In this document: positions 15,302 through 27,116 of the stretch, piece by piece
Numbering within the stretch: the first letter of the stretch is position 1
How the letters are laid out: every line of letters begins with the position of its first letter
Assembly: GCA_028713285.1 (NCBI GenBank)
Contig: JAQTOP010000022.1
Span: 1-42,571 of the forward strand
Reading direction: 5' to 3'
Length of the DNA stretch: 42,571 nt
Origin: Terrimicrobiaceae bacterium
GTDB taxonomy: Bacteria; Verrucomicrobiota; Verrucomicrobiia; Chthoniobacterales; JAATET01
Translations under genes and position numbers: made by a program
Notes under the pieces: model-generated
The model's database searches: none
What the model saw: the letters and a program-made list of their open reading frames with translations, nothing else
What the model was told of the DNA's origin: nothing

Positions 15302-16255
15302 TTACCCTGGCAGGAGTCGCCACAGGACGGCGATCTCGATGGTAAAGAGCCCGACGAGGATGGCAACGCCGCGCGCGGTGACGGTCGCCTTTTCCGCGTC
15401 GTCGGCGGGGAACAGCCACCAGCCGAACCAGCGAACGCAGAGCGGCATCGTGATAAAGCTGGTGATGGCGACGCTGCCCGCGTTGCCGATGAATGTGGCG
15501 AGCGAGGCGTGCAGCCCGAGGCCCGCCAGCACGGGGCTGAGGAAGCGCATTTCGAGCATCACGGTCGGGAAAAGTCCCAGCAGCACGAGCAGGGCGGTCT
15601 TCCAATCCGGCGGGCCCTTTCCCGTGACGGGATCGACCGGCACCCAGCCGGGGAACGACGTGGCCAGGCGCATCAGCTCCTCGCTTTCAATGAATGCCTT
15701 CGACTCCCGCAGCAGCTCGGCGCGCTCGGGGGCGGCCATCCACCCCTCGAGATGCTCGGCGGTGTCGTAGCGCACGAGCGTCGTCCAGTGGCCATCCTTC
15801 CCGGTGGTCGGCGGCTGCAAATACATCCCGCGATAGCCGGGATACTTCGATTGGGCCTGCTGGATTCGCACCGCCCACTCGCGATAGACGTCGTCCATCC
15901 CGGGCTTGATTTTCGACAGGATGACTTCGGTGACGGTCGTGCCCGGCGCTTCGCCGGCGCCGCCCACGTTCATCGCCTCGCCCAGGTTGCCGCCTTCGAA
16001 AAAGGGCAGCGCCTCCGCGAGGAGTGCCGCGCGTTCCGCGGACTTCTGCCAGACCGTCAATTGGTCGGGCGTCTGGAAGTTCAGCACGATCGTCCATTCG
16101 TTGCTTCCCGCGGCGCCCGGCGGAAGGATGTCGCTGCTCACGAAGCCCGGGAATTTGGCGACAGCCGCATTGTGATAAACCTGCCAGGCGGCGAAGGCAT
16201 CTTCCTCGCCGGGACGAACCTTCGCGGTGGCGATCAGGACGGCGGGGGCGCTCAT
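15302..16255 (-). CDS. Tandem antibiotic-biosynthesis-monooxygenase (ABM) domain membrane protein
   Basis: A 317-residue protein with two ABM-like ferredoxin-fold domains (about residues 5-100 and 108-205), each with the WQ-, F-x-G and W-x-x-S/A-P-E-R pattern of the family, followed by three or four membrane helices (about 222-240, 246-275 and 297-315). This arrangement, cytoplasmic ABM pair plus membrane tail, is known as a conserved but uncharacterised family. ABM domains act on quinone-like or haem substrates without cofactors, but no function can be assigned here. ATG 16255 overlaps the stop of a 24-codon mini-ORF as ATGA and has no Shine-Dalgarno sequence of its own. Confidence 0.75.
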   Translation of the reverse strand: MSAPAVLIATAKVRPGEEDAFAAWQVYHNAAVAKFPGFVSSDILPPGAAGSNEWTIVLNFQTPDQLTVWQKSAERAALLAEALPFFEGGNLGEAMNVGGAGEAPGTTVTEVILSKIKPGMDDVYREWAVRIQQAQSKYPGYRGMYLQPPTTGKDGHWTTLVRYDTAEHLEGWMAAPERAELLRESKAFIESEELMRLATSFPGWVPVDPVTGKGPPDWKTALLVLLGLFPTVMLEMRFLSPVLAGLGLHASLATFIGNAGSVAITSFITMPLCVRWFGWWLFPADDAEKATVTARGVAILVGLFTIEIAVLWRLLPG

Positions 16256-17088: not shown

Positions 17089-17709
17089 TCAAATATTAGC
17101 GCAGCGGTGCTGTTCCCGACAGCGATCAGCACGTCTGCGCCGTCCACGCCATAGATGCCAGCACAATCCGCCCAGGCCGATCAGCATGAGGACGCCGGTC
17201 GTCGGCTCGGGAACGACGGTCAATGTGAAACTGGAAGGGATATAGGGAATCGACTGGTTCGAGCTACCCCGTAAATCCTGGGAGGCAGAATTCTGAGCGA
17301 CGAAGGACACTGTGTAACTCCCCGTCGCCATTGTGCCAATCGTTGTCAGGTTGATCTGCACGAGCGTGGATGTCCCCGTGAGATCCGTGCCTGAAATATT
17401 CCCCGCGCCATACTTTCGGGTCGGCGCATCGGATAAGGAAATCCATCCAGTGGGCACCGTATCCGTAAAGCTGCTGATGGTGGTCCCCATCGGTAAAACC
17501 GCCAACTGCAAGTCGAAATTGTCCAAAGCCGGTGAGCTAAGCCCACTGACTTGGACGTTCAAAGAGAAACTCTGCCCGGGCGTGATCGTGAGGCTGGAAA
17601 GTCCGGTTCCCGCATCAAGCAGACGCAAGAGCACCTGCGCCTGACCGGTTCCTAGCGCCGCGAGCAAGGAGATGCCCGCCACTCCCATGATTTTCCTAAT
17701 TATTTTCAT
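17089..17709 (-). CDS. PEP-CTERM protein with cohesin-like ectodomain
   Basis: A 206-residue surface protein. A signal peptide covers residues 1-24 (ending GTGQA). Residues about 25-165 form an all-beta domain with a cohesin-like pattern: LTITPGQSFSLNVQVSGL (40-57), then FDLQLAVLP (65-73) where cohesins have a FDLxLxYDP strand, and later LVQINLTTIG and SYTVSFVA strands. VPEP (166-169), a hydrophobic stretch (171-187) and RGRRRR form the PEP-CTERM sorting signal read by exosortase. Unusually, 13 more residues follow the basic cluster. It starts 23 bases after a dockerin-protein gene, with a GGAAGGG site. The cohesin assignment is my inference from the strand pattern; the sorting signal is clear. 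Confidence 0.8.
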   Translation of the reverse strand: MKIIRKIMGVAGISLLAALGTGQAQVLLRLLDAGTGLSSLTITPGQSFSLNVQVSGLSSPALDNFDLQLAVLPMGTTISSFTDTVPTGWISLSDAPTRKYGAGNISGTDLTGTSTLVQINLTTIGTMATGSYTVSFVAQNSASQDLRGSSNQSIPYIPSSFTLTVVPEPTTGVLMLIGLGGLCWHLWRGRRRRADRCREQHRCANI

Positions 17710-17732
17710 TTTACCCTTCCCCAGGAATCCAT

Positions 17733-20700
17733 TCAAGGAACCTGCCTCCCGTAGTTGTCCCTGATCGTGGTGATGTCCGCGGCATTCACCGCGCCATCGC
17801 CATTCAAATCTGCGCGGGGGTCAAAGCCCGCATCCCCCGCGAGTTTGCCATAGCTGTTGCGGATCCAGGTCAAGTCCGCCGCGTTGACCACGCCGTCTCC
17901 GCTCACATCGCCCTGCAAAATGCGCAATTTGACTGCTGCATTTGCAAGCACGGCTCCCGATGGGTTCGTTACGTTGCTCGCGGTGACGGTCAGCGTTTGC
18001 TGGCTGGCGACCCCGGTCAGGTTAACCGTCATCGTGGCGCCGCTGATCGCGATCGAGTTTACGGCGCCCGTCCCAACCGTCACGAGCGCGCTGCCCGACG
18101 CGATATTCTGGTCAAAAGTCAATACCACCTGATAAAGGCCGTTCACGCCTCCATAGCGACACTCGACACCGGACGGGTCGATCAGTGGAGCGCTGATATC
18201 GTAAATGATCCCTCCCTGATTCCTCCGCGAAACCACGCTCAGTAATCCCGGTCCCTTCACGACATTGGCTCCCTGGCTAAGATTGACATAGGTGCCCGTG
18301 TTCGCTGTGAACAAGCGCGAGGCGCGCACCATATAAACTGCATTACCCAATGGAGCCGGATCCGTCCAGTTGGTTCCGGTCACGAGATTTCCGTTATTCA
18401 GAAGGGTCAGGACAGTATTGGGCGCCGTGCCCCGGTAGATGTAATAACCCTGGAATCCCGGAGCCGCACTGTCGGCCGACGCCGTCCAGGACAGCGTGGC
18501 GTTGCCGATGCCGCCCGTGGTCAGAGCCGTCGGTGGGGCCACCATATCCTGCCTGAGAGTCGGATCACCCATCAGGCCGAATTGGGTGGTCGGGTTCGTG
18601 GGTATCCCGTTCAAGATGTAAGTGTGCTGCGATTCATCCGTCTGGGCCAACCCGGCCGCCGTCTGAACATGAGTGATGCCATTGGTCTGCGAGAGGCGCA
18701 TGCCCTCACCGAGGGTGCCTCCCATGCCCATGGGATGCATGAAACAATTCGGCAGATTGTAGCATGAGCCGAGAGTCCTGCCGGATGCCGCCAGAAAGGA
18801 ACGGAGCAGATTGTTCGGGCTGTCCCAATCTCCAAAGCCGCTGCCGCACGCCATCGTGAACACCGCCCGGCACCCCAACTGGGCCAGAACCGTTGAATTC
18901 GCTATGCCGAGGCAATCGTTAAATGCTCCGTAGCCCCCTCCACCAGCCCAAAGGAAATCCTGGCTGGCGAGGAGTTGACTCTGCAAGCTGGCCACGCCGG
19001 TTTGGGTATTCATGAAAGCCGAGACGTTCGCCACCCCGACATTGGCGCTCGCCGCCCGCAGAATGCCGACGGGAAGGGTGAAGGTCCCGCTTGCCACATT
19101 AAAGCCGTCTCCAACCGCCGCGCGACGCGGGACGGTGAATTGCGCCTGCCGCCATTGGTGATTGCGGTTAAGATATTGCTTGAGCAGTCGCACCTCCGCC
19201 GCCCCAGCGGTTTCGCCAGCCTGCGTGAAGACGGGCAGATTATACATGTCGATGCGTCCGACCTGTAGATCGATCGGCGCGGGTAAAACACTCTGATCGA
19301 ACTTTCCGTCGCCGGGAATGTTCTTATTCCAGGTCTGTGAACCAAAGCTGTTCGTGTAGTTCGAACTATCGGTCCATGTGCCCGTCATGTCGCCGTAGTA
19401 GGTGTCAGCGGCCCACGCACCCGTATGATTGCCATGACCGTCGGGACTAATATCTCCGGAATAGGGCACCGGCACATGTCCAAGCAGGATTACCGCATCG
19501 ACGGTGGGATCGTTCTGGTAATCGGTCTTGATCAGTGATTTTACGTTCACGACAGCGGAGGCGTAGCCTGCGGTATCCACATTTACGTCACTGACGGCAT
19601 GCTCCCGCACGATCCATCCGTCGCCGTTCAGATCGCTTTTCAATGTGGCGATCTCATTGGCCAACGATGCCGCGACGCCCGACTCCTCCATTAGCACAAC
19701 TGTGCCCCGGATGTGCTTTGGCGGAACATTAATGCCCGCCCAGCAAAAGCCGTAATTCATAGCATTGAGAGTCGAACCAGTCTGCCGCCGCACCATGTAT
19801 TCATACATCGTCCCGGCCACGACGCCGGTATCCGTCCAGGTTGTCGCCGTAGCCGGAAGGTTCGGGGTGGAGGTGAGGTATGTCCACGTTGCGCCTCCGG
19901 GAAGCTTGCGATAGATGCCCACCCAGACGCTGGCGCTCTCCGAAGCGGCAGGCCAGTTGAGCGTGATGCCGGGGGGACTGGTCGTGACTGTCGCGCTTAC
20001 ACCGATTCCCGAATCACTCTGCGCAACCGCGCCGCGACTAAGCCCAAAGCCTTCGGGCAGTGTAGGAATTGCCTGAGCCACCGGCTGACGCTGGAGAGCG
20101 CCCAGCGCGGGAAACGTCCCCGGATCGCTGTTCCAGAGGCGGACCATGTCATAATCCACGCTGACGGGTGTATTAAAAGTGCCCGCCGCCGTCCAGGAAT
20201 CCAACCCCCATTGGCCGGTTGGCAACGGCGAAGCTCCAATGGCCGCCGCGCTGGCGTAAAAGGTCTGCATGCCCAGCAGGTTCCCCTGGCCCATGATGCT
20301 GGAAGAGGTATCGATCTCCCCCGTACCCGCCACGCCGAAGACCTTCATCGTGATCAACCCCGTCGCAGGGTTGGTGTTAAACGTGACTCCCATGTGCGCC
20401 ACAGTACCCGGGGTTCCAAACGGACCGCGCATGTAGCCCAGTCCAGTCCCGCCCGTGGGAGGCAAAGTCAAACTGAATGTATCGCTTTTTGTAAACGAGG
20501 CGGCTGTGCTGCCAACACCTGAAGCGGAGCCAGTTACGACATGCAATTGAAGCGCCTCGGAGGTGTTTCCATTAAAAATCAGGCGCATCCCGGTGGTTCC
20601 CGAAATAGTGGATATGTCGAGCCGCGGGAACCACGCGGAAACATATTTCTCGACAGAATTCGGGCAGATAAAGAAGTCGAATCCGCCGTTCAAGGTCACG

Positions 20701-21032
20701 TAAGCCGTGCCGCCGATCGTGACCGTTCCGGCCAACGCCGCCCAGGAGTTAGCCGGACTCGCAGGGTTGTATTTCACTATATTGACGGCTCCATTTCCCA
20801 TGGGCGCCGCTTCATTAATGTAGCTGCCGCTGCCGGATGCAAATGGGCTCCCGCTCTGGATCGAACCCGTCGCAGGAAGGCTCCTGGTCCCACCCGTTAC
20901 GGATACGCCATCATCCTGGAAAATGAGAGCCGCCTCCGCAGCCGAAAGGCTTAGCAAGAGCACGGCGCTCAAACAGGCTGGAAACAAATGGTGGAGAAAT
21001 TGTTTGTCGGTTCGGATTTGTGATGGATTCAT
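17733..21032 (-). CDS. Secreted dockerin protein with gingipain (C25)-like centre
   Basis: A 1099-residue secreted protein. Signal peptide about 1-35; beta-sandwich-like N-module about 36-310, shared with the two upstream genes; FN3-like domain about 345-435; C25-like region about 440-830; second FN3-like domain about 835-920; Ig-like domain about 935-1040; type I dockerin 1041-1099 with two calcium loops (D-x-S/N-x-D-G-x-V-N-x-x-D). C25 features are VDAVILLGHVPVP (511-523), MACGSG with Cys729 at the gingipain nucleophile position, and MGDPTLR (821-827). The GHG motif that carries the catalytic His in gingipains is replaced by GGGG (697-700), so peptidase activity is doubtful. ATG 21032 sits 49 bases after the preceding gene. 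Confidence 0.85.
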   Translation of the reverse strand: MNPSQIRTDKQFLHHLFPACLSAVLLLSLSAAEAALIFQDDGVSVTGGTRSLPATGSIQSGSPFASGSGSYINEAAPMGNGAVNIVKYNPASPANSWAALAGTVTIGGTAYVTLNGGFDFFICPNSVEKYVSAWFPRLDISTISGTTGMRLIFNGNTSEALQLHVVTGSASGVGSTAASFTKSDTFSLTLPPTGGTGLGYMRGPFGTPGTVAHMGVTFNTNPATGLITMKVFGVAGTGEIDTSSSIMGQGNLLGMQTFYASAAAIGASPLPTGQWGLDSWTAAGTFNTPVSVDYDMVRLWNSDPGTFPALGALQRQPVAQAIPTLPEGFGLSRGAVAQSDSGIGVSATVTTSPPGITLNWPAASESASVWVGIYRKLPGGATWTYLTSTPNLPATATTWTDTGVVAGTMYEYMVRRQTGSTLNAMNYGFCWAGINVPPKHIRGTVVLMEESGVAASLANEIATLKSDLNGDGWIVREHAVSDVNVDTAGYASAVVNVKSLIKTDYQNDPTVDAVILLGHVPVPYSGDISPDGHGNHTGAWAADTYYGDMTGTWTDSSNYTNSFGSQTWNKNIPGDGKFDQSVLPAPIDLQVGRIDMYNLPVFTQAGETAGAAEVRLLKQYLNRNHQWRQAQFTVPRRAAVGDGFNVASGTFTLPVGILRAASANVGVANVSAFMNTQTGVASLQSQLLASQDFLWAGGGGYGAFNDCLGIANSTVLAQLGCRAVFTMACGSGFGDWDSPNNLLRSFLAASGRTLGSCYNLPNCFMHPMGMGGTLGEGMRLSQTNGITHVQTAAGLAQTDESQHTYILNGIPTNPTTQFGLMGDPTLRQDMVAPPTALTTGGIGNATLSWTASADSAAPGFQGYYIYRGTAPNTVLTLLNNGNLVTGTNWTDPAPLGNAVYMVRASRLFTANTGTYVNLSQGANVVKGPGLLSVVSRRNQGGIIYDISAPLIDPSGVECRYGGVNGLYQVVLTFDQNIASGSALVTVGTGAVNSIAISGATMTVNLTGVASQQTLTVTASNVTNPSGAVLANAAVKLRILQGDVSGDGVVNAADLTWIRNSYGKLAGDAGFDPRADLNGDGAVNAADITTIRDNYGRQVP
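17736..18240 (-). repeat. Ig-like plus dockerin module, copy 1
   Basis: C-terminal cassette of the C25-like protein gene. It is clearly homologous in DNA to 21085-21590 and 24773-25272. It encodes an Ig-like domain containing VVLTFDQNIASG and a 59-residue type I dockerin. Confidence 0.85.
20110..20930 (-). repeat. N-terminal beta-sandwich-like module, copy 1
   Basis: Encodes about 275 residues running from LIFQDD to LWNSDPGTFP. The same module occurs at 23640-24492 and 26172-26985. It resembles LamG/concanavalin-type beta-sandwiches in composition and strand rhythm, but I cannot name the family. Shared landmarks are NSWAAL, LNGGFD-FV, GMRLIFNG, VTFNTNPATG and VDYDxVRLxNSDPG. Confidence 0.75.
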
Positions 21033-21081
21033 GCTTGAGATTGGGAAAATGTCTCGAGTTTCGGCTGCATGTATTGTCGAT

Positions 21082-24000
21082 TCACGGAACCTGCCTCCCG
21101 TAATTATCCTTGATGGTGGTGATGTCCGCGGCGTTCACCGCGCCATCGGCGTTCAAGTCGGCCCGCGGGTCGAAGCCGGCGTGCCCCGCGATCGTGCCAT
21201 AGCTATTGCGCACGCCGGTCAGGTCCGCCGCATTGACCACCCCGTCCCCATTCACATCGCCCTGCAACACGCGCAGCTTGAACGCCGCGCTCGCCAGGCT
21301 CTGGCCCGCGGCATTCGTCACATTGCTGGCCGTCAGGGTCAATGCCTGCTGGTTGGACACCCCGCTCAAGGTCGCTGTCATCGTCGCACCATTGATCGCC
21401 GTCGCACTCACGCTGCCCGCTCCCGCAGTCACCGCCACGGCGCCCGACGCGATATTCTGGTCGAAGGTTAATACCACTTGGTAGCCATTAATTATCGCCC
21501 CATAGCGGCACTCGACTCCAGCGGGGTCGGTCAGCGGCAGGCTCGTGTCGCAATCGACTCCTCCCTGATTCTTCCGCGAGGAGGCTCCGGCGAGTTGCGG
21601 CGGGAGGGCCGGCAGATTTCCGCTCCAGTCCACGCTCTTGACTACTCCGGTGGCCGGATCGGTGATCGTCAGCACTTTGTTGACCAGCGTCACCAGGGGA
21701 TGGGTCGCGTCCAGCCGCGCGTCGATGTCCGGCCACGGGTCCGAGAGGTCGGGCGCCCCGTTGACCGAGACGCTCGGAAACATCCTCACCCTGCCTTGAC
21801 TGTCAGACGTCAGGTTGGTGTCGTAGCTCGCACTCAGTGTCACGTTTTGTGAATTCGTATATTGGACGCTCAACGATGGCATTGTGCCAGATCCCCACGC
21901 CACGCTCGGCTGGCGCGGTGTCAATGCCGCCTTGAAGGCCGCGAAATCGGCAAACTGCCCGCCGCTCGCCGTGCTCGTTCCTATCTCCACCACGAAGCCC
22001 GTTTGCGAACGGCCACCGTGCGGCACCGCGGTCGCGAAGAGGCTTTTCCAGACGCCTGCGTAATCCTGCGGAGCCCCGGGGGCGGTCAGAGTGCGGATGC
22101 CGATGTATGTGTTTCCTTCGTGGAGGAAATACCAGGTCGTTCCATCGGCGTTGGCCACGGCGTCGGTTTCATCCATCGAGAGCGGATAGCGCATCGCACA
22201 CTCGGTGCGCAGCGCGTTCGCATGCTCGCTGCGGCGAATTTGAGGTGGATTGAGTGTGCGATCGGTAAAGTAAAAGTCCGGACGCCCGGGGGAGGAGTTC
22301 GGCCAGGGGTCGGTCGATGGGATATTGAACATTATGATGGCCGTGTTCTTATAATGGGCCACCTGCATGAACGGCGAGTGCGGGGCCTGCCACCAATTCA
22401 GCCCTGACTCGTCGGCCAGCCAGTAGGGATGCCCTGCCTGAATATATTGCAAACGATCCGTCGAACGGTAAGCGATGCCAAATCTGCTGCCATCCTGGAT
22501 ATGCGTGGTATTTGGAACATAATAGCCAACCATCGATCCGACGGCGAATTCCCTGTCGCGCCACACGCGCCTGCGCAATGCATCGTTCACCCGCGCATCG
22601 TAGGCTCCACCGACAGCCCAGATCGGCTCGGACGTCAGAACCCAATGCGCCTTCCCGGCATTGTCGCTTGCGAGATTGGCGATGCGATCCAACGCCGCCG
22701 GAGGGCGGTAAGACGAAAGGGCGGGATAAACTGTGAAGAGACAGTCTCCCCAGTTGGTCATCCGTGCCGCCTCGGGCCTGCATTGATTCCAATAAAGCCA
22801 GTTTAGAAGCACGGTGTCGTTCTTGTTGCCGTCATCGACGCCAGGGCCGATTCCGCCATTGGTATAGACGGAATTGTAAAAGCGCGGATACGGATCAAGA
22901 ATATATCCGCGATAGACGTTCACTGAAAGGTGAGCTAATATATGGGTAATAATGCCTTCGGCGATGCGCTTGACCTCGGGATCCTGCGCAAACTCATAGA
23001 GATTTAGCATGGGGATCAGGTGGGCCGGAATGTAATTTGGCGAGGAAGCTTCGGAGAATGAGCGGTCGAAACGCAGGCTTCCCTGCCGGCGCAATTCCTC
23101 CTTGTTGTGCGACATTAGCACGAGTGAGCTCACTCGCGCGGTTCCTAATGGGAGATCCGGCCTGTCGGACCGCTTGGGATTTGGATAGTCCGGAAGCCAC
23201 GTGGCCGCGGGAAATTTTTGCGCCAGAAGGTATCCGTTGGAAAGCCTCATCAAATGGTGGTTTTCTGTGCCGCCTCCATACCAAAAATACATCCGTTGGG
23301 TATCCGTCGCCACCTGCGCAAGCTGCGCCGGAGAAAAACGGTCGCCGAATTGGTAAATGGCGCGCACAACTCCCAAGGGAAAAAACTCGGATCCCTGTAG
23401 TTGTTCAAAAGTCGTCAATACGGACAGATTGCTGGCTGTGTAACTAACGGCGTTGTTGGAGTTCGCCGAACCGGCCGGGAACTTGTAAAGATTCGCCAGA
23501 TTATATGCCATTCCGAAGTGGGCCGCCGGGGTTGGCGCGGGCCATTCCAGGCCGAGGAGCCATTTCTTGCGGGAATCGAAAGAACTCCAATCGGGTGGGG
23601 TCGGAGGAACTGGCGGGAAAATTCCCGGAACACCGAAACTCCCAGGATCGCTGTTGTAGAGGCGAACCGAATCATAATCCACGCTGGTATTGGCAGTGAA
23701 GGAAGCGCCGTTTGCCGATCTTTCCGTCATCGTCCACGCGCCTGTCGGGAGGGTGATGGCTCCGATTGCGTCGGCGCTGGCGTAAAAGGACTGCCTGGCC
23801 AGCAGATTGCCCGCTCCGACGGTGTCCGAGCTGGTGTCGATGGCATTGGTGCCAGCGGCCCCGAAGACCTTCACCGTGATCTGGCCTGTAGCGGGATTGG
23901 TTTTGAAGGTGACTCCCAGATGAGTGATCGCCCCCGTCGTAAATTGATTTGGAGTGCCGGTAATTGCGCCCGGTAGAATCCAGGTATCGTTTGTCGTGAA

Positions 24001-24675
24001 GGCCCCCGGCAGAGACCCCAGGCCCGCGCCCGCCCCGGTTTTGAATTCGAATTGAACGCCGCCACTGCTAATGCCATTGAAGATCAGACGCGCGCCCGAG
24101 GGCCCTGAAATCGTTGTAATATCCACCGGGCGAAACCACGGTGCACCCGCTTCGCCGGAGATCGGACGGACAAAGATGTCGAAGGCGCCGTTCAAGTTCA
24201 GGTAGTTGATACCGCCCGTGTTGATCGGAGTTGCGACCAAAGCCGCCCATGAGTTGGCAGCCGTCGTCGGTGTGAAGGTGACGATGGTCTTGGCGCCGGT
24301 TGTCCCGGAGGCCACCGAACTGTTTACGTAATTGCCGGCGACGGCACTAAATGGACTCGCACTGCCGATAGTATTGGTCACGTTGGGCGCCGTGCCGCCC
24401 GGCCCGAGCGCCCCCATTCCGCCAATAGCGCCTATATCTCCCGCGCCAGCGGTTCCAGATCGGGTGCCGCTGAAATCAGCCTGAAAGATCGGGACGGCCA
24501 TCGCGCCAGCTGGAAGGAAGGCAATCGCCGCCTGGAGGGCCACGCCCGGCCAGCAACTTCCTATCAGCCGCGGCGCATCCTTTTCAGGGCGGGGACGGAA
24601 ACGATCTCCGGTTTCCATTCCGGTAGGAGTCGCCCGATTTCGCGAGCGGCTTGTGGTTATTTGCTGGTGGTTCAT
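21082..24675 (-). CDS. Secreted dockerin protein with toroid lyase-like centre
   Basis: A 1197-residue protein. A charged leader precedes a hydrophobic segment (about 37-60, ending GAMA), so export is likely; an alternative start is ATG 24618. The shared beta-sandwich-like N-module spans about 61-350. The centre, about 360-1025, is helix-rich and Trp/Tyr-rich with GGGTENHHLMRLSNGYLL (467-484) and SSPNYIPAHLIPMLNLYEFA (544-563), then a beta-rich part. This order recalls alpha/alpha-toroid polysaccharide lyases with a C-terminal beta-sandwich (heparinase and alginate-lyase types). Asn472, His473 and His474 are candidate active-site residues. Ig-like domain about 1030-1138 and dockerin 1139-1197 close the protein. 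The family assignment of the centre is tentative; substrate unknown. Confidence 0.8.
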   Translation of the reverse strand: MNHQQITTSRSRNRATPTGMETGDRFRPRPEKDAPRLIGSCWPGVALQAAIAFLPAGAMAVPIFQADFSGTRSGTAGAGDIGAIGGMGALGPGGTAPNVTNTIGSASPFSAVAGNYVNSSVASGTTGAKTIVTFTPTTAANSWAALVATPINTGGINYLNLNGAFDIFVRPISGEAGAPWFRPVDITTISGPSGARLIFNGISSGGVQFEFKTGAGAGLGSLPGAFTTNDTWILPGAITGTPNQFTTGAITHLGVTFKTNPATGQITVKVFGAAGTNAIDTSSDTVGAGNLLARQSFYASADAIGAITLPTGAWTMTERSANGASFTANTSVDYDSVRLYNSDPGSFGVPGIFPPVPPTPPDWSSFDSRKKWLLGLEWPAPTPAAHFGMAYNLANLYKFPAGSANSNNAVSYTASNLSVLTTFEQLQGSEFFPLGVVRAIYQFGDRFSPAQLAQVATDTQRMYFWYGGGTENHHLMRLSNGYLLAQKFPAATWLPDYPNPKRSDRPDLPLGTARVSSLVLMSHNKEELRRQGSLRFDRSFSEASSPNYIPAHLIPMLNLYEFAQDPEVKRIAEGIITHILAHLSVNVYRGYILDPYPRFYNSVYTNGGIGPGVDDGNKNDTVLLNWLYWNQCRPEAARMTNWGDCLFTVYPALSSYRPPAALDRIANLASDNAGKAHWVLTSEPIWAVGGAYDARVNDALRRRVWRDREFAVGSMVGYYVPNTTHIQDGSRFGIAYRSTDRLQYIQAGHPYWLADESGLNWWQAPHSPFMQVAHYKNTAIIMFNIPSTDPWPNSSPGRPDFYFTDRTLNPPQIRRSEHANALRTECAMRYPLSMDETDAVANADGTTWYFLHEGNTYIGIRTLTAPGAPQDYAGVWKSLFATAVPHGGRSQTGFVVEIGTSTASGGQFADFAAFKAALTPRQPSVAWGSGTMPSLSVQYTNSQNVTLSASYDTNLTSDSQGRVRMFPSVSVNGAPDLSDPWPDIDARLDATHPLVTLVNKVLTITDPATGVVKSVDWSGNLPALPPQLAGASSRKNQGGVDCDTSLPLTDPAGVECRYGAIINGYQVVLTFDQNIASGAVAVTAGAGSVSATAINGATMTATLSGVSNQQALTLTASNVTNAAGQSLASAAFKLRVLQGDVNGDGVVNAADLTGVRNSYGTIAGHAGFDPRADLNADGAVNAADITTIKDNYGRQVP
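21085..21590 (-). repeat. Ig-like plus dockerin module, copy 2
   Basis: C-terminal cassette of the toroid-domain gene, homologous in DNA to 17736-18240 and 24773-25272. The two calcium loops read DVNGDGVVNAAD and DLNADGAVNAAD. Confidence 0.85.
23640..24492 (-). repeat. N-terminal beta-sandwich-like module, copy 2
   Basis: Second copy of the module also found at 20110-20930 and 26172-26985. It carries a Gly-rich insertion near its start (IGAIGGMGALGPGG) that the other copies lack. Confidence 0.75.
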
Positions 24676-24769
24676 GCCGGGGGGGAGGCCTTCGCTTTGC
24701 CTTGCGTAAACCAAACTGGAATCCGCTGATATTATGTTCGCAACATTACTCGCACTATTCCGGTTGATT

Positions 24770-27049
24770 TCAAGGAACCTGCAGGCCGTAATTGTTCCGG
24801 ATGCTGGTGATGTCCGCAGCATTCACTGCTCCGTCGCCATTCAAGTCCGCCCGCGGATCGAAGCCCGCCTGCCCGGCGGATTTGCCGTAGGCGTTTCGCA
24901 CACCGGTCAGATCCGCCGCGTTGACTGCGCCGTCTCCATTGACGTCCCCCTGCAGGACGCGCACCTTGATCGCCGCACCTGCCAGAAATTGCCCAACGGA
25001 ATTTGTGACATTGCTGGCGGTGACAACCAATGTCTGCTGGTTGGCCACGCCGCTCAAGTTCACGGTCATGGTCGCCCCATTGATCGATGTGGAACTGACG
25101 CTTCCTGTTCCTCCCGTCACTGCCGCCGTGCCCGAAATGACGTTCTGATCGAAAGTCAGAATTAGCTTATAGGTGCCGGCAACCGGGGCCCGCCCTTCGA
25201 CCGCCGCCGCGCCCGTCTGTGGCAGGCCAATATCGTAGTTTATGCCTCCCTGGACCTCGCGCGAAACTGCCGAGGCGAATGTCGGCGGCTTCGGCTGCTG
25301 ACTGACGACATCCCAAATCGTCTGCTGCATGAGCAGCATATCGGCGGGGGAAATGGCCGTATTGTTTACGAATGGGGCGGCGACGCCGTTGGCGTTCACG
25401 TCGTTGACCAGGCCCACCGGGCTTTGCCTGAAAATCGCCGCATACGCCGTCCATGCAGCGACATTCTGGCCTACGGAATTCATATGAATGCCATCGCGAT
25501 GGAGATCCCTAATGGAGGTAAAGTCCTGAAATTGCCCCGCCCGCATCTTTATATCCAACGCATTGAGAGCCTCTCCGACGGGGATCACCTCGATATTTGG
25601 ATTGGTCTGGCGCACGGCTGCGACAAGGTAGGTGAAGTAGTCGCGCGCGAGGGTGCTCGGCTGGCTGGGGATGTTTTGAATGGGAGCCAGATAAGCCGCG
25701 CTGTTGCTGTTCAGGTCGCTGTAAACCACCGTCGGCCAGGCTTCGTAGATGAAAAATCGGGTCGAAGCATTGTTGGCATTCGTCCGGGCCGCCGCGATCA
25801 TGCCATTGACGGAGGCCGTGTCGGTGGCGAGGGTGGCGGGAGCCGTGGAGTCCGGAAACGGCTCCATCGTAACGACACTCCAGGTGTTCCCGGGCAGCGC
25901 CGTGGGCCAGGGGACAAGATTGGTCGCCGGCTGGGCGGAGACGGAAGTCAATCCCACGGCCGACCGCGTGGAGATCGTGTCGTTTGGATTGTTATAAATA
26001 AAGGTGAGGCTGGTCCCCGGTCTGAAATGATATCCCCACAAGTAGTTCGTGCCCTGGGTCGCCTCGTATCTCGTGCCGACATTTCGAAAATTGATGAACA
26101 TGTCCTGGGTCAATGAGTTGCCGATATGAAATGCCGTGAAATAACCGACGAGCGGCGGCGGTGTGGCGCTCAGGCCCGGAAAAGTCCCGGGGTCGCTGTT
26201 CCATAGGCGGATCGTGTCGTAATCGACATTGGTGGCGGTGCCAAATGTAGCGCTCGGATAGGAACGAGCGGTCGGCGACCACGCTCCGGTGGGAAGCACC
26301 GACGCGCCAACGGCCGCCGCGCTGATATAGAAAGTTTGCATTCCGATCAGATTGCCAATGCCGACCAGATTGGAACTGGTATCGATCGCTCCGCCATTCG
26401 ACGCACCGAATAGCTTCATCGTGACCTGGCCCGTGCCGGGATTGGTATTGAATGTGATTCCCAGGTGCGCGACCGTTCCAGGCGTCATGGGATTCCCTGC
26501 GCCGCTGATGCTATTTGGCAAATTGAAAGAATCGTTCGTCGTAAACGAGCCAGGGGAGCTGCCCAAACCCGTCGCGGAGGCGGTCGAGATCTCGAGTTGA
26601 ATCTGGCTCCCGCCAGCCCCGTTCAAAATAAGACGCATTCCGGCGGAGGCCGTTTTGGTGGAAATATCCACCGGACGAAACCATGCGGTGCCAGCTTCAG
26701 CGGTATTGACACGAACAAAAAGATCGAACCCGCCGTTCAAGGTCACATACGTCGTGCCGCCGACGGTTACGCTCCCAGTGAGGGCCGACCAGGAGTTCGC
26801 CGGACCCGCGGGAGTGTAAGTGACGATGGTTGCGCCGGCGTCGCCGACGGCAAGCGACGACTTCAGGTAGCTCCCACTGTCGGGTGAGGCGACGAGCGGG
26901 CTCGCCGCCGTGATCGAACTCGCACTACCGAGGCTTCGAACTCCGCCGGTGATGGAACTGGCATCGTCCTCAAAGATCAGAGCGGCCCTGCCGCAGAGGG
27001 AGAGCGAAATGAAGGCGAGTGAAAAAAAGCAAAGCTTACAATGGTGCAT
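24770..27049 (-). CDS. Secreted dockerin protein with SGNH/GDSL esterase centre
   Basis: A 759-residue secreted protein, first gene of the cluster. Signal peptide about 1-22 (ending CGRA); beta-sandwich-like N-module about 23-293; SGNH hydrolase domain about 300-545; Ig-like domain about 590-700; type I dockerin 701-759. The hydrolase has HIGNSLTQ (308-315) with nucleophile Ser312 and block V RDGIHMN with Asp519 and His522, so the Ser-His-Asp set is intact. Such enzymes often remove acetyl or other ester groups from polysaccharides, which would suit the lyase-like neighbour. A near-consensus promoter lies about 40 bases upstream of ATG 27049, which has no Shine-Dalgarno sequence. The next gene starts 94 bases downstream. 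Confidence 0.88.
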   Translation of the reverse strand: MHHCKLCFFSLAFISLSLCGRAALIFEDDASSITGGVRSLGSASSITAASPLVASPDSGSYLKSSLAVGDAGATIVTYTPAGPANSWSALTGSVTVGGTTYVTLNGGFDLFVRVNTAEAGTAWFRPVDISTKTASAGMRLILNGAGGSQIQLEISTASATGLGSSPGSFTTNDSFNLPNSISGAGNPMTPGTVAHLGITFNTNPGTGQVTMKLFGASNGGAIDTSSNLVGIGNLIGMQTFYISAAAVGASVLPTGAWSPTARSYPSATFGTATNVDYDTIRLWNSDPGTFPGLSATPPPLVGYFTAFHIGNSLTQDMFINFRNVGTRYEATQGTNYLWGYHFRPGTSLTFIYNNPNDTISTRSAVGLTSVSAQPATNLVPWPTALPGNTWSVVTMEPFPDSTAPATLATDTASVNGMIAAARTNANNASTRFFIYEAWPTVVYSDLNSNSAAYLAPIQNIPSQPSTLARDYFTYLVAAVRQTNPNIEVIPVGEALNALDIKMRAGQFQDFTSIRDLHRDGIHMNSVGQNVAAWTAYAAIFRQSPVGLVNDVNANGVAAPFVNNTAISPADMLLMQQTIWDVVSQQPKPPTFASAVSREVQGGINYDIGLPQTGAAAVEGRAPVAGTYKLILTFDQNVISGTAAVTGGTGSVSSTSINGATMTVNLSGVANQQTLVVTASNVTNSVGQFLAGAAIKVRVLQGDVNGDGAVNAADLTGVRNAYGKSAGQAGFDPRADLNGDGAVNAADITSIRNNYGLQVP
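24773..25272 (-). repeat. Ig-like plus dockerin module, copy 3
   Basis: C-terminal cassette of the SGNH esterase gene, homologous in DNA to 17736-18240 and 21085-21590. The calcium loops are DVNGDGAVNAAD and DLNGDGAVNAAD. Confidence 0.85.
26172..26985 (-). repeat. N-terminal beta-sandwich-like module, copy 3
   Basis: Third copy of the module at 20110-20930 and 23640-24492. It encodes the segment from LIFEDD to LWNSDPGTFP of the SGNH esterase protein. Confidence 0.75.
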
Positions 27050-27087: not shown

Positions 27088-27116
27088 AGGATAGCGCCCT
27101 GATTGCTTCCTGTCAA
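27088..27116 (-). promoter_or_regulatory. Sigma-70-type promoter of the dockerin operon
   Basis: On the minus strand, -35 TTGACA (27116-27111) is separated by exactly 17 bases from -10 TATCCT (27093-27088). This is the best promoter match I found in the window. It would start transcription about 30 bases before the SGNH esterase start codon. No equally good promoter was seen ahead of the other two dockerin genes or the PEP-CTERM gene, which supports one operon. Confidence 0.7.

Follow-up and report, generated by a model that had tools for sequence, protein, structure and literature searches.

A dockerin operon of Verrucomicrobiota with a putative exosortase-anchored cohesin receptor

In the genome of a Terrimicrobiaceae bacterium, three genes for large secreted proteins ending in dockerins are followed by a gene for a short PEP-CTERM protein, and the question raised by this arrangement is whether the short protein is the receptor that holds the large ones at the cell. 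A preliminary description of the locus, made from sequence alone, had proposed that the PEP-CTERM protein carries a cohesin-like ectodomain that binds the dockerins, giving a small cellulosome-like complex with an exosortase-type anchor. Here we follow up this proposal in the window, that is, the whole stretch of 42,571 nucleotides that was analysed (contig C41 of a 3.53 Mb genome, G000, that is 97.8% complete), and across related genomes.

The operon, its dockerins, and its sorting signal

All four genes lie on the minus strand. Gene 1 (24770..27049) encodes a secreted SGNH/DUF4886-like, esterase-like protein of 759 aa; gene 2 (21082..24675) a large secreted protein called lyase-like in the preliminary description; gene 3 (17733..21032) a large secreted protein of 1,099 aa that is C25-like by motif only; and gene 4 (17089..17709, starting at ATG 17709) a PEP-CTERM protein of ~206 aa with a signal peptide and an ectodomain of predicted cohesin fold. 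The intergenic gaps are 94, 49, and 23 nt, as first described, provided that ATG 24675 is the start of the lyase-like gene and ATG 17709 that of the PEP-CTERM gene; the mechanically derived open reading frames begin further upstream, at 24822 and at TTG 17736, respectively. The near-consensus promoter reported before gene 1 is present as a promoter-like site (TTGACA-17-TATCCT, minus strand, 27088..27116) with a 10/12 match but is weak evidence, because seven such sites were found in the region versus 3.8 expected by chance. Outside the operon, positions 15302-16255 of the window, minus strand, encode a protein in which two antibiotic-biosynthesis monooxygenase (ABM) domains precede a membrane part.

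The three large proteins meet the definition of dockerin proteins by sequence, both by profile and by two symmetric F-hand loops, and their calcium-dependent binding to a cohesin is inferred. Dockerin_1 (PF00404) scores above its curated Pfam cut-off in each of them (36.7-41.1 bits versus 22.9), at 24794-24949 in gene 1 (E 2e-10), 21109-21261 in gene 2 (E 1.5e-9), and 17763-17912 in gene 3 (E 5e-9). Each dockerin has two complete calcium loops of the form D-x-N/S-x-D-G-x-V-N-A-A-D, and the "AAD" recognition letters are identical in 6/6 loops. Two claims of the preliminary description are therefore upheld by Pfam and by the open reading frame coordinates, namely that the large proteins carry type I dockerins with the same calcium loops and AAD residues and that a PEP-CTERM protein follows them 23 nt on.

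The large proteins also share their architecture. A ~250-aa N-terminal beta domain is common to all three at 50-53% identity, as are the last ~170 aa, composed of a ~105-aa beta domain and the dockerin, at 68-71% identity; the middle parts, between these shared modules, are unrelated. The ~105-aa domain, X-like (Big-like) in character, always stands directly before the dockerin, the combined module occupying minus-strand positions 24773..25273 in gene 1, 21085..21588 in gene 2, and 17736..18239 in gene 3, and by analogy it recalls the X modules found beside some cellulosomal dockerins. The shared N-terminal domain, recognizable by a GGFDLFVRP...WFRPVDIST pattern, belongs to no Pfam family and also occurs in a protein encoded on contig C87. 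That protein (L036:15695-19441) is a right-handed beta-helix protein whose N-terminal domain, X-like domain, and C-terminal dockerin match those of the window's proteins, and it is one of only two further dockerin proteins that Pfam finds in this genome, the other being an RHS-like protein on contig C71. A GH1-like glycosidase gene lies just upstream of the C87 gene. The beta domain plus dockerin module is seen inside RHS-like proteins, near the RHS-associated core, both on C71 (L004:1-1029) and in another genome (G044:C60, L097:1-1408).

No Pfam catalytic family was found in the window's three cargo proteins. The earlier labels "lyase-like" for gene 2 and "C25-like" for gene 3 remain unconfirmed, neither protein having a Pfam family or a convincing match in a PDB sequence search, and the esterase assignment of gene 1 rests on a DUF4886 match below the cut-off (E 0.0016) together with SGNH-type motifs read by eye.

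The sorting signal of gene 4, consisting of the PEP motif, a hydrophobic helix, and a basic tail (minus strand, 17137..17214), is above the cut-off of PF07589 (25 bits versus 20.7, E 1.8e-5) and just under that of TIGR02595 (14.5 versus 16), and no other Pfam domain was found in this protein. The window's genome encodes two exosortases of the EpsH family (E 1.7e-44 and 5.1e-41), and exosortases were present in 10/10 genomes checked. The exosortase-type anchor first proposed is thus backed by a PEP-CTERM motif above the Pfam cut-off and by two exosortase genes, while processing itself is inferred.

Predicted fold of the PEP-CTERM ectodomain

Whether the ectodomain of gene 4 (143 aa, minus strand, 17212..17640) is a cohesin receives different answers from sequence and from predicted structure. 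The cohesin family profile PF00963 has no match anywhere in the window's genome, even at E 10, and the ectodomain has no Pfam match and no meaningful PDB match by profile (hmmsearch). Known cohesins of Ruminococcus are likewise missed by sequence methods (PMC11557425); therefore, the absence of PF00963 lowers the claim of sequence family membership, not that of fold. An AlphaFold2 model built on an 18-sequence alignment, with a mean pLDDT of 92.6 and a pTM of 0.86, predicts that the ectodomain adopts the nine-stranded cohesin jelly-roll. In a Foldseek search of the PDB with this model, ranks 1-36 were all cohesins or cohesin-bearing chains, the best being 6kgf_C (E 1.9e-7, TM 0.77), and on realignment all 50 entries listed were cohesin structures, with a best Z of 16.4 and an rmsd of 1.8 Å over 132/143 residues; the Archaeoglobus cohesin 2xdh gave a Z of 14.9. 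A far partner protein from genome G011, ~20% identical to that of the window and with its fold taken from its prediction as part of another chain, was also closest to cohesins (Z 12.4; ranks 1-27 all cohesins on realignment). The gene 4 protein is thus a cohesin by the criterion of predicted fold but is not recognised by the cohesin sequence profile. The cohesin-like ectodomain of the preliminary description held at this level, and a non-cohesin fold, which would have refuted it, did not appear.

A shared fold is no proof of binding, and no interface between dockerin and ectodomain was predicted with confidence. This was tried only on a single linked chain from the relative G011, in which the in-frame dockerin and cohesin genes are read through stop codons, a construct made for the prediction that corresponds to no biological product. 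In the resulting model (pTM 0.62), the cohesin was well folded and the dockerin (pLDDT ~65) was placed without confidence, the prediction being of a single chain and without PAE.

Another PEP-CTERM protein of this cohesin family, 50% identical to the gene 4 product, is encoded elsewhere in the window's genome (C17:10964-11563, L031:1477-2121); its gene stands alone between a radical-SAM-like gene and lpxD, without a dockerin gene alongside. Conversely, the C87 dockerin protein is without a cohesin neighbour within the 546 nt left on its contig. Such unpaired genes are as expected for a system acting in trans, a possibility that they do not prove. A rival explanation is that the PEP-CTERM protein, despite its cohesin fold, is no dockerin receptor but a co-transcribed matrix or adhesin protein, with the dockerins binding something else, for example, a surface polymer or each other. 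The lone C17 paralog, the docking prediction without confidence, and the fact that a common fold shows no function all count in favour of this rival; the evidence against it comes from the comparison of genomes.

Gene pairing and co-divergence in other genomes

Searching 286 genomes of the class with the ectodomain only, its PEP-CTERM tail removed, gave three further clear loci (G136:C10, G136:C14, and G169:C13) in another family of the class, at each of which 4 to 23 nt separate the cohesin-family gene from a preceding gene whose product ends in the same beta domain and dockerin. The dockerin module was found in 24/286 genomes of the class and in 37/213 of the order. Further pairs of a dockerin gene followed by a PEP-CTERM gene occur at distances of 6-53 nt in G041, G047, G351, G196, G300, G045, G169 (contig C23), and G011 (two pairs), and at 209 and 239 nt in G044 and G021, and every paired downstream protein has a signal peptide, a beta domain of ~150-180 aa with the same pattern, and a PEP-CTERM tail. 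When orthologous loci are counted once (G041/G047/G351; G136:C14/G169:C13; G011/G300), there are about ten independent cases of this pairing in divergent lineages of the phylum. Each genome has 3 to 100 PEP-CTERM genes (~0.1-2% of genes), and a same-strand PEP-CTERM neighbour is expected by chance for ~0.05-1% of genes; given this scarcity, the joint chance of the observed pairs is tiny, even over fewer independent lineages.

The pair counts leave out matches in G066, G098, and others, where the module is divergent and another domain comes after it. In this divergent form (L107-L119, L122, L131, and L132, from G066, G059, G098, and G090), the module is followed by an extra domain of ~60 aa (LTFxIDGxxQPGxISGE...HRLTWTYxKN), and a PEP-CTERM gene with a similar ectodomain lies 53 nt after it in G059 and 18 nt after it in G090. 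A phylum-wide search with a pooled cohesin alignment found nothing beyond the members already known, the family diverging too fast for a single profile.

The two partners also occur together and diverge together. With an alignment of seven partners as query, 14 cohesin loci were found in 11/213 genomes of the order, and 11/11 of these cohesin-positive genomes are among the 37/213 with a dockerin module (hypergeometric P ~1e-9, or 2e-6 by genus, neither being corrected for relatedness). Among the newly found cohesins, G381:C123 and G369:C345 likewise follow dockerin genes of the same strand. On the other side, three genomes of the window's genus are without a dockerin module, which counts against the pairing. 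Over 15 pairs, cohesin identity correlates with dockerin identity (r 0.83, reached in 0/5,000 permutations), a co-divergence that stems in part from shared ancestry. Yet the window's cohesin is 30-35% identical to those of another family of the class versus 17-27% to those of its own order, a tendency that its dockerin follows, and the G169 pair on C23 resembles family f9 more than it does the C13 pair of that genome, in both of its partners. Cohesin and dockerin genes seem to move together.

The contact region of the dockerins offers a further hint of recognition. Loop positions 10/11 agree in 83% of comparisons between the two repeats of one protein versus 17% of those between genomes, and the contact letters are NAAD in the window, TSPD at G136:C14, NAGD in G011, NSAD in G021, and NSSD in G044, the dockerins of one genome being alike in this region and different from those of other genomes. 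The same combination, a two-fold symmetry whose letters are specific to the species, is seen in dual-binding cellulosomal dockerins. Adjacency in about ten divergent lineages, co-occurrence in 11/11 genomes, and co-divergence would not be expected of unrelated neighbours, and the contact positions differ between genomes yet are symmetric within proteins; with these points against it, a cohesin fold that does not bind dockerins appears to us an unlikely explanation. The claim that the dockerin proteins are held on the cell by the PEP-CTERM cohesin is supported by predicted fold, conserved pairs, co-occurrence, co-divergence, and contact symmetry, binding remaining an inference.

Under another rival, the X-like domain and dockerin together would form a C-terminal sorting signal that is processed, and the PEP-CTERM protein would assist that pathway instead of serving as an anchor. 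In favour of this reading, the module is at the extreme C-terminus and has a conserved end (-QVP / -LP) in most copies. On the other hand, some copies have tails after the module or lie inside RHS-like proteins, and the predicted fold of the partner is that of cohesins, the receptor fold known for dockerins. We regard this alternative as very unlikely.

A display model and its relation to known systems

The explanation that we favour is that the operon encodes a minimal surface-display device. Sec would secrete the three large proteins, each ending in an X-like beta domain and a type I dockerin, and the product of gene 4 would be their receptor, with a single cohesin domain followed by the PEP-CTERM signal. 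An exosortase would recognise this signal and attach the receptor to the cell envelope or to a surface polymer, and calcium-loaded dockerins would plug into the cohesin, one protein per anchor, such that the three cargo proteins and the fourth dockerin protein encoded elsewhere in the genome may be held interchangeably at the surface. A minimal display system, with a single cohesin and an exosortase anchor, is the likely identity of this operon, although binding and its calcium dependence, the one-to-one stoichiometry, processing by exosortase, and extracellular display are all inferred.

The receptor may not be confined to the cargo encoded beside it. Six genomes (G021, G044, G369, G381, G389, and G396) have at least 12 dockerin modules each versus one to three cohesins of the gene 4 kind; therefore, one receptor probably serves many cargo proteins. 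The domains carried by dockerin proteins include BNR repeats, PKD, fn3, FG-GAP, PA14, and beta helix, and no cellulase domain was found in the cargo proteins scanned. A variant of the display model retains the complex but has the PEP-CTERM protein released into an extracellular matrix, which would leave the cargo bound to the matrix and not to the cell. The first description of PEP-CTERM sorting linked it to exopolysaccharide (PMC1569441), which favours this variant; the present evidence does not separate matrix from cell surface, and we regard the variant as possible but less likely than not.

The term "cellulosome-like" in the preliminary description needs qualifying. There is one cohesin per anchor, and the cohesin-family search of the window's genome returned two PEP-CTERM proteins, each with a single cohesin, and no others; PF00963, a profile that misses these cohesins, revealed no multi-cohesin scaffoldin there, and there is no evidence for a cellulose substrate. 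On present evidence, the system is probably not a cellulosome. It nevertheless resembles cellulosomes with single-cohesin or sortase-anchored surface proteins (Ruminococcus flavefaciens ScaE; OlpA, OlpC, and ScaG types) in the dockerins of its secreted proteins, the putative surface-anchored cohesin, the two-repeat dockerins, and the X module present beside some of them, and single-cohesin proteins with sortase, SLH, or transmembrane attachment are known (PMC11557425). It differs from them in its PEP-CTERM/exosortase signal, in its Verrucomicrobiota host, in the lack of any multi-cohesin scaffoldin found, and in a cohesin that is unrecognisable by sequence.

A non-cellulosic cohesin-dockerin complex has been proposed in the same superphylum, namely the "planctosome" of freshwater Planctomycetes (PMC6461901), for which peptidase cargo was proposed. 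The planctosome is modelled with a 2,210-aa lamin-tail-domain anchor and an adaptor with dockerin and cohesin, whereas the window's anchor is a single-cohesin PEP-CTERM protein of ~200 aa, with no adaptor seen and no match by Pfam to a large lamin-tail-domain anchor with cohesin. Cohesin folds also exist outside cellulosomes in archaea (Archaeoglobus 2xdh; ANME archaea, PMC5244752), but no dockerin gene paired with an exosortase-type cohesin anchor was shown there. The C-terminal signal and exosortase genes of the window agree with PEP-CTERM/exosortase sorting as described (PMC1569441), in which, to our knowledge, no role is known for cohesins or dockerins. We found no published description of an exosortase-anchored cohesin with dockerin partners, and no paper naming both dockerin and PEP-CTERM, in the literature searched; subscription papers were outside this search and prior mention is not excluded.

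Together, our analyses also allow a bolder reading, which we think likely, that cohesin-dockerin display is widespread in Verrucomicrobiota and was unrecognised before, with one to three exosortase-anchored single-cohesin receptors per genome serving from one to more than twelve secreted dockerin proteins through a species-specific recognition code. Such a system would be the exosortase counterpart, in diderm bacteria, of the sortase-anchored cellulosome. Dockerin genes without a recognisable cohesin are common in environmental genomes and have so far been unexplained; with binding inferred, the missing receptors may be short PEP-CTERM proteins that escape sequence profiles. If binding is real, one class of PEP-CTERM proteins would acquire a concrete function, protein engineers would have many new matched pairs of cohesin and dockerin at hand, and there would be a hint of how Verrucomicrobiota retain their large secreted proteins at the cell.
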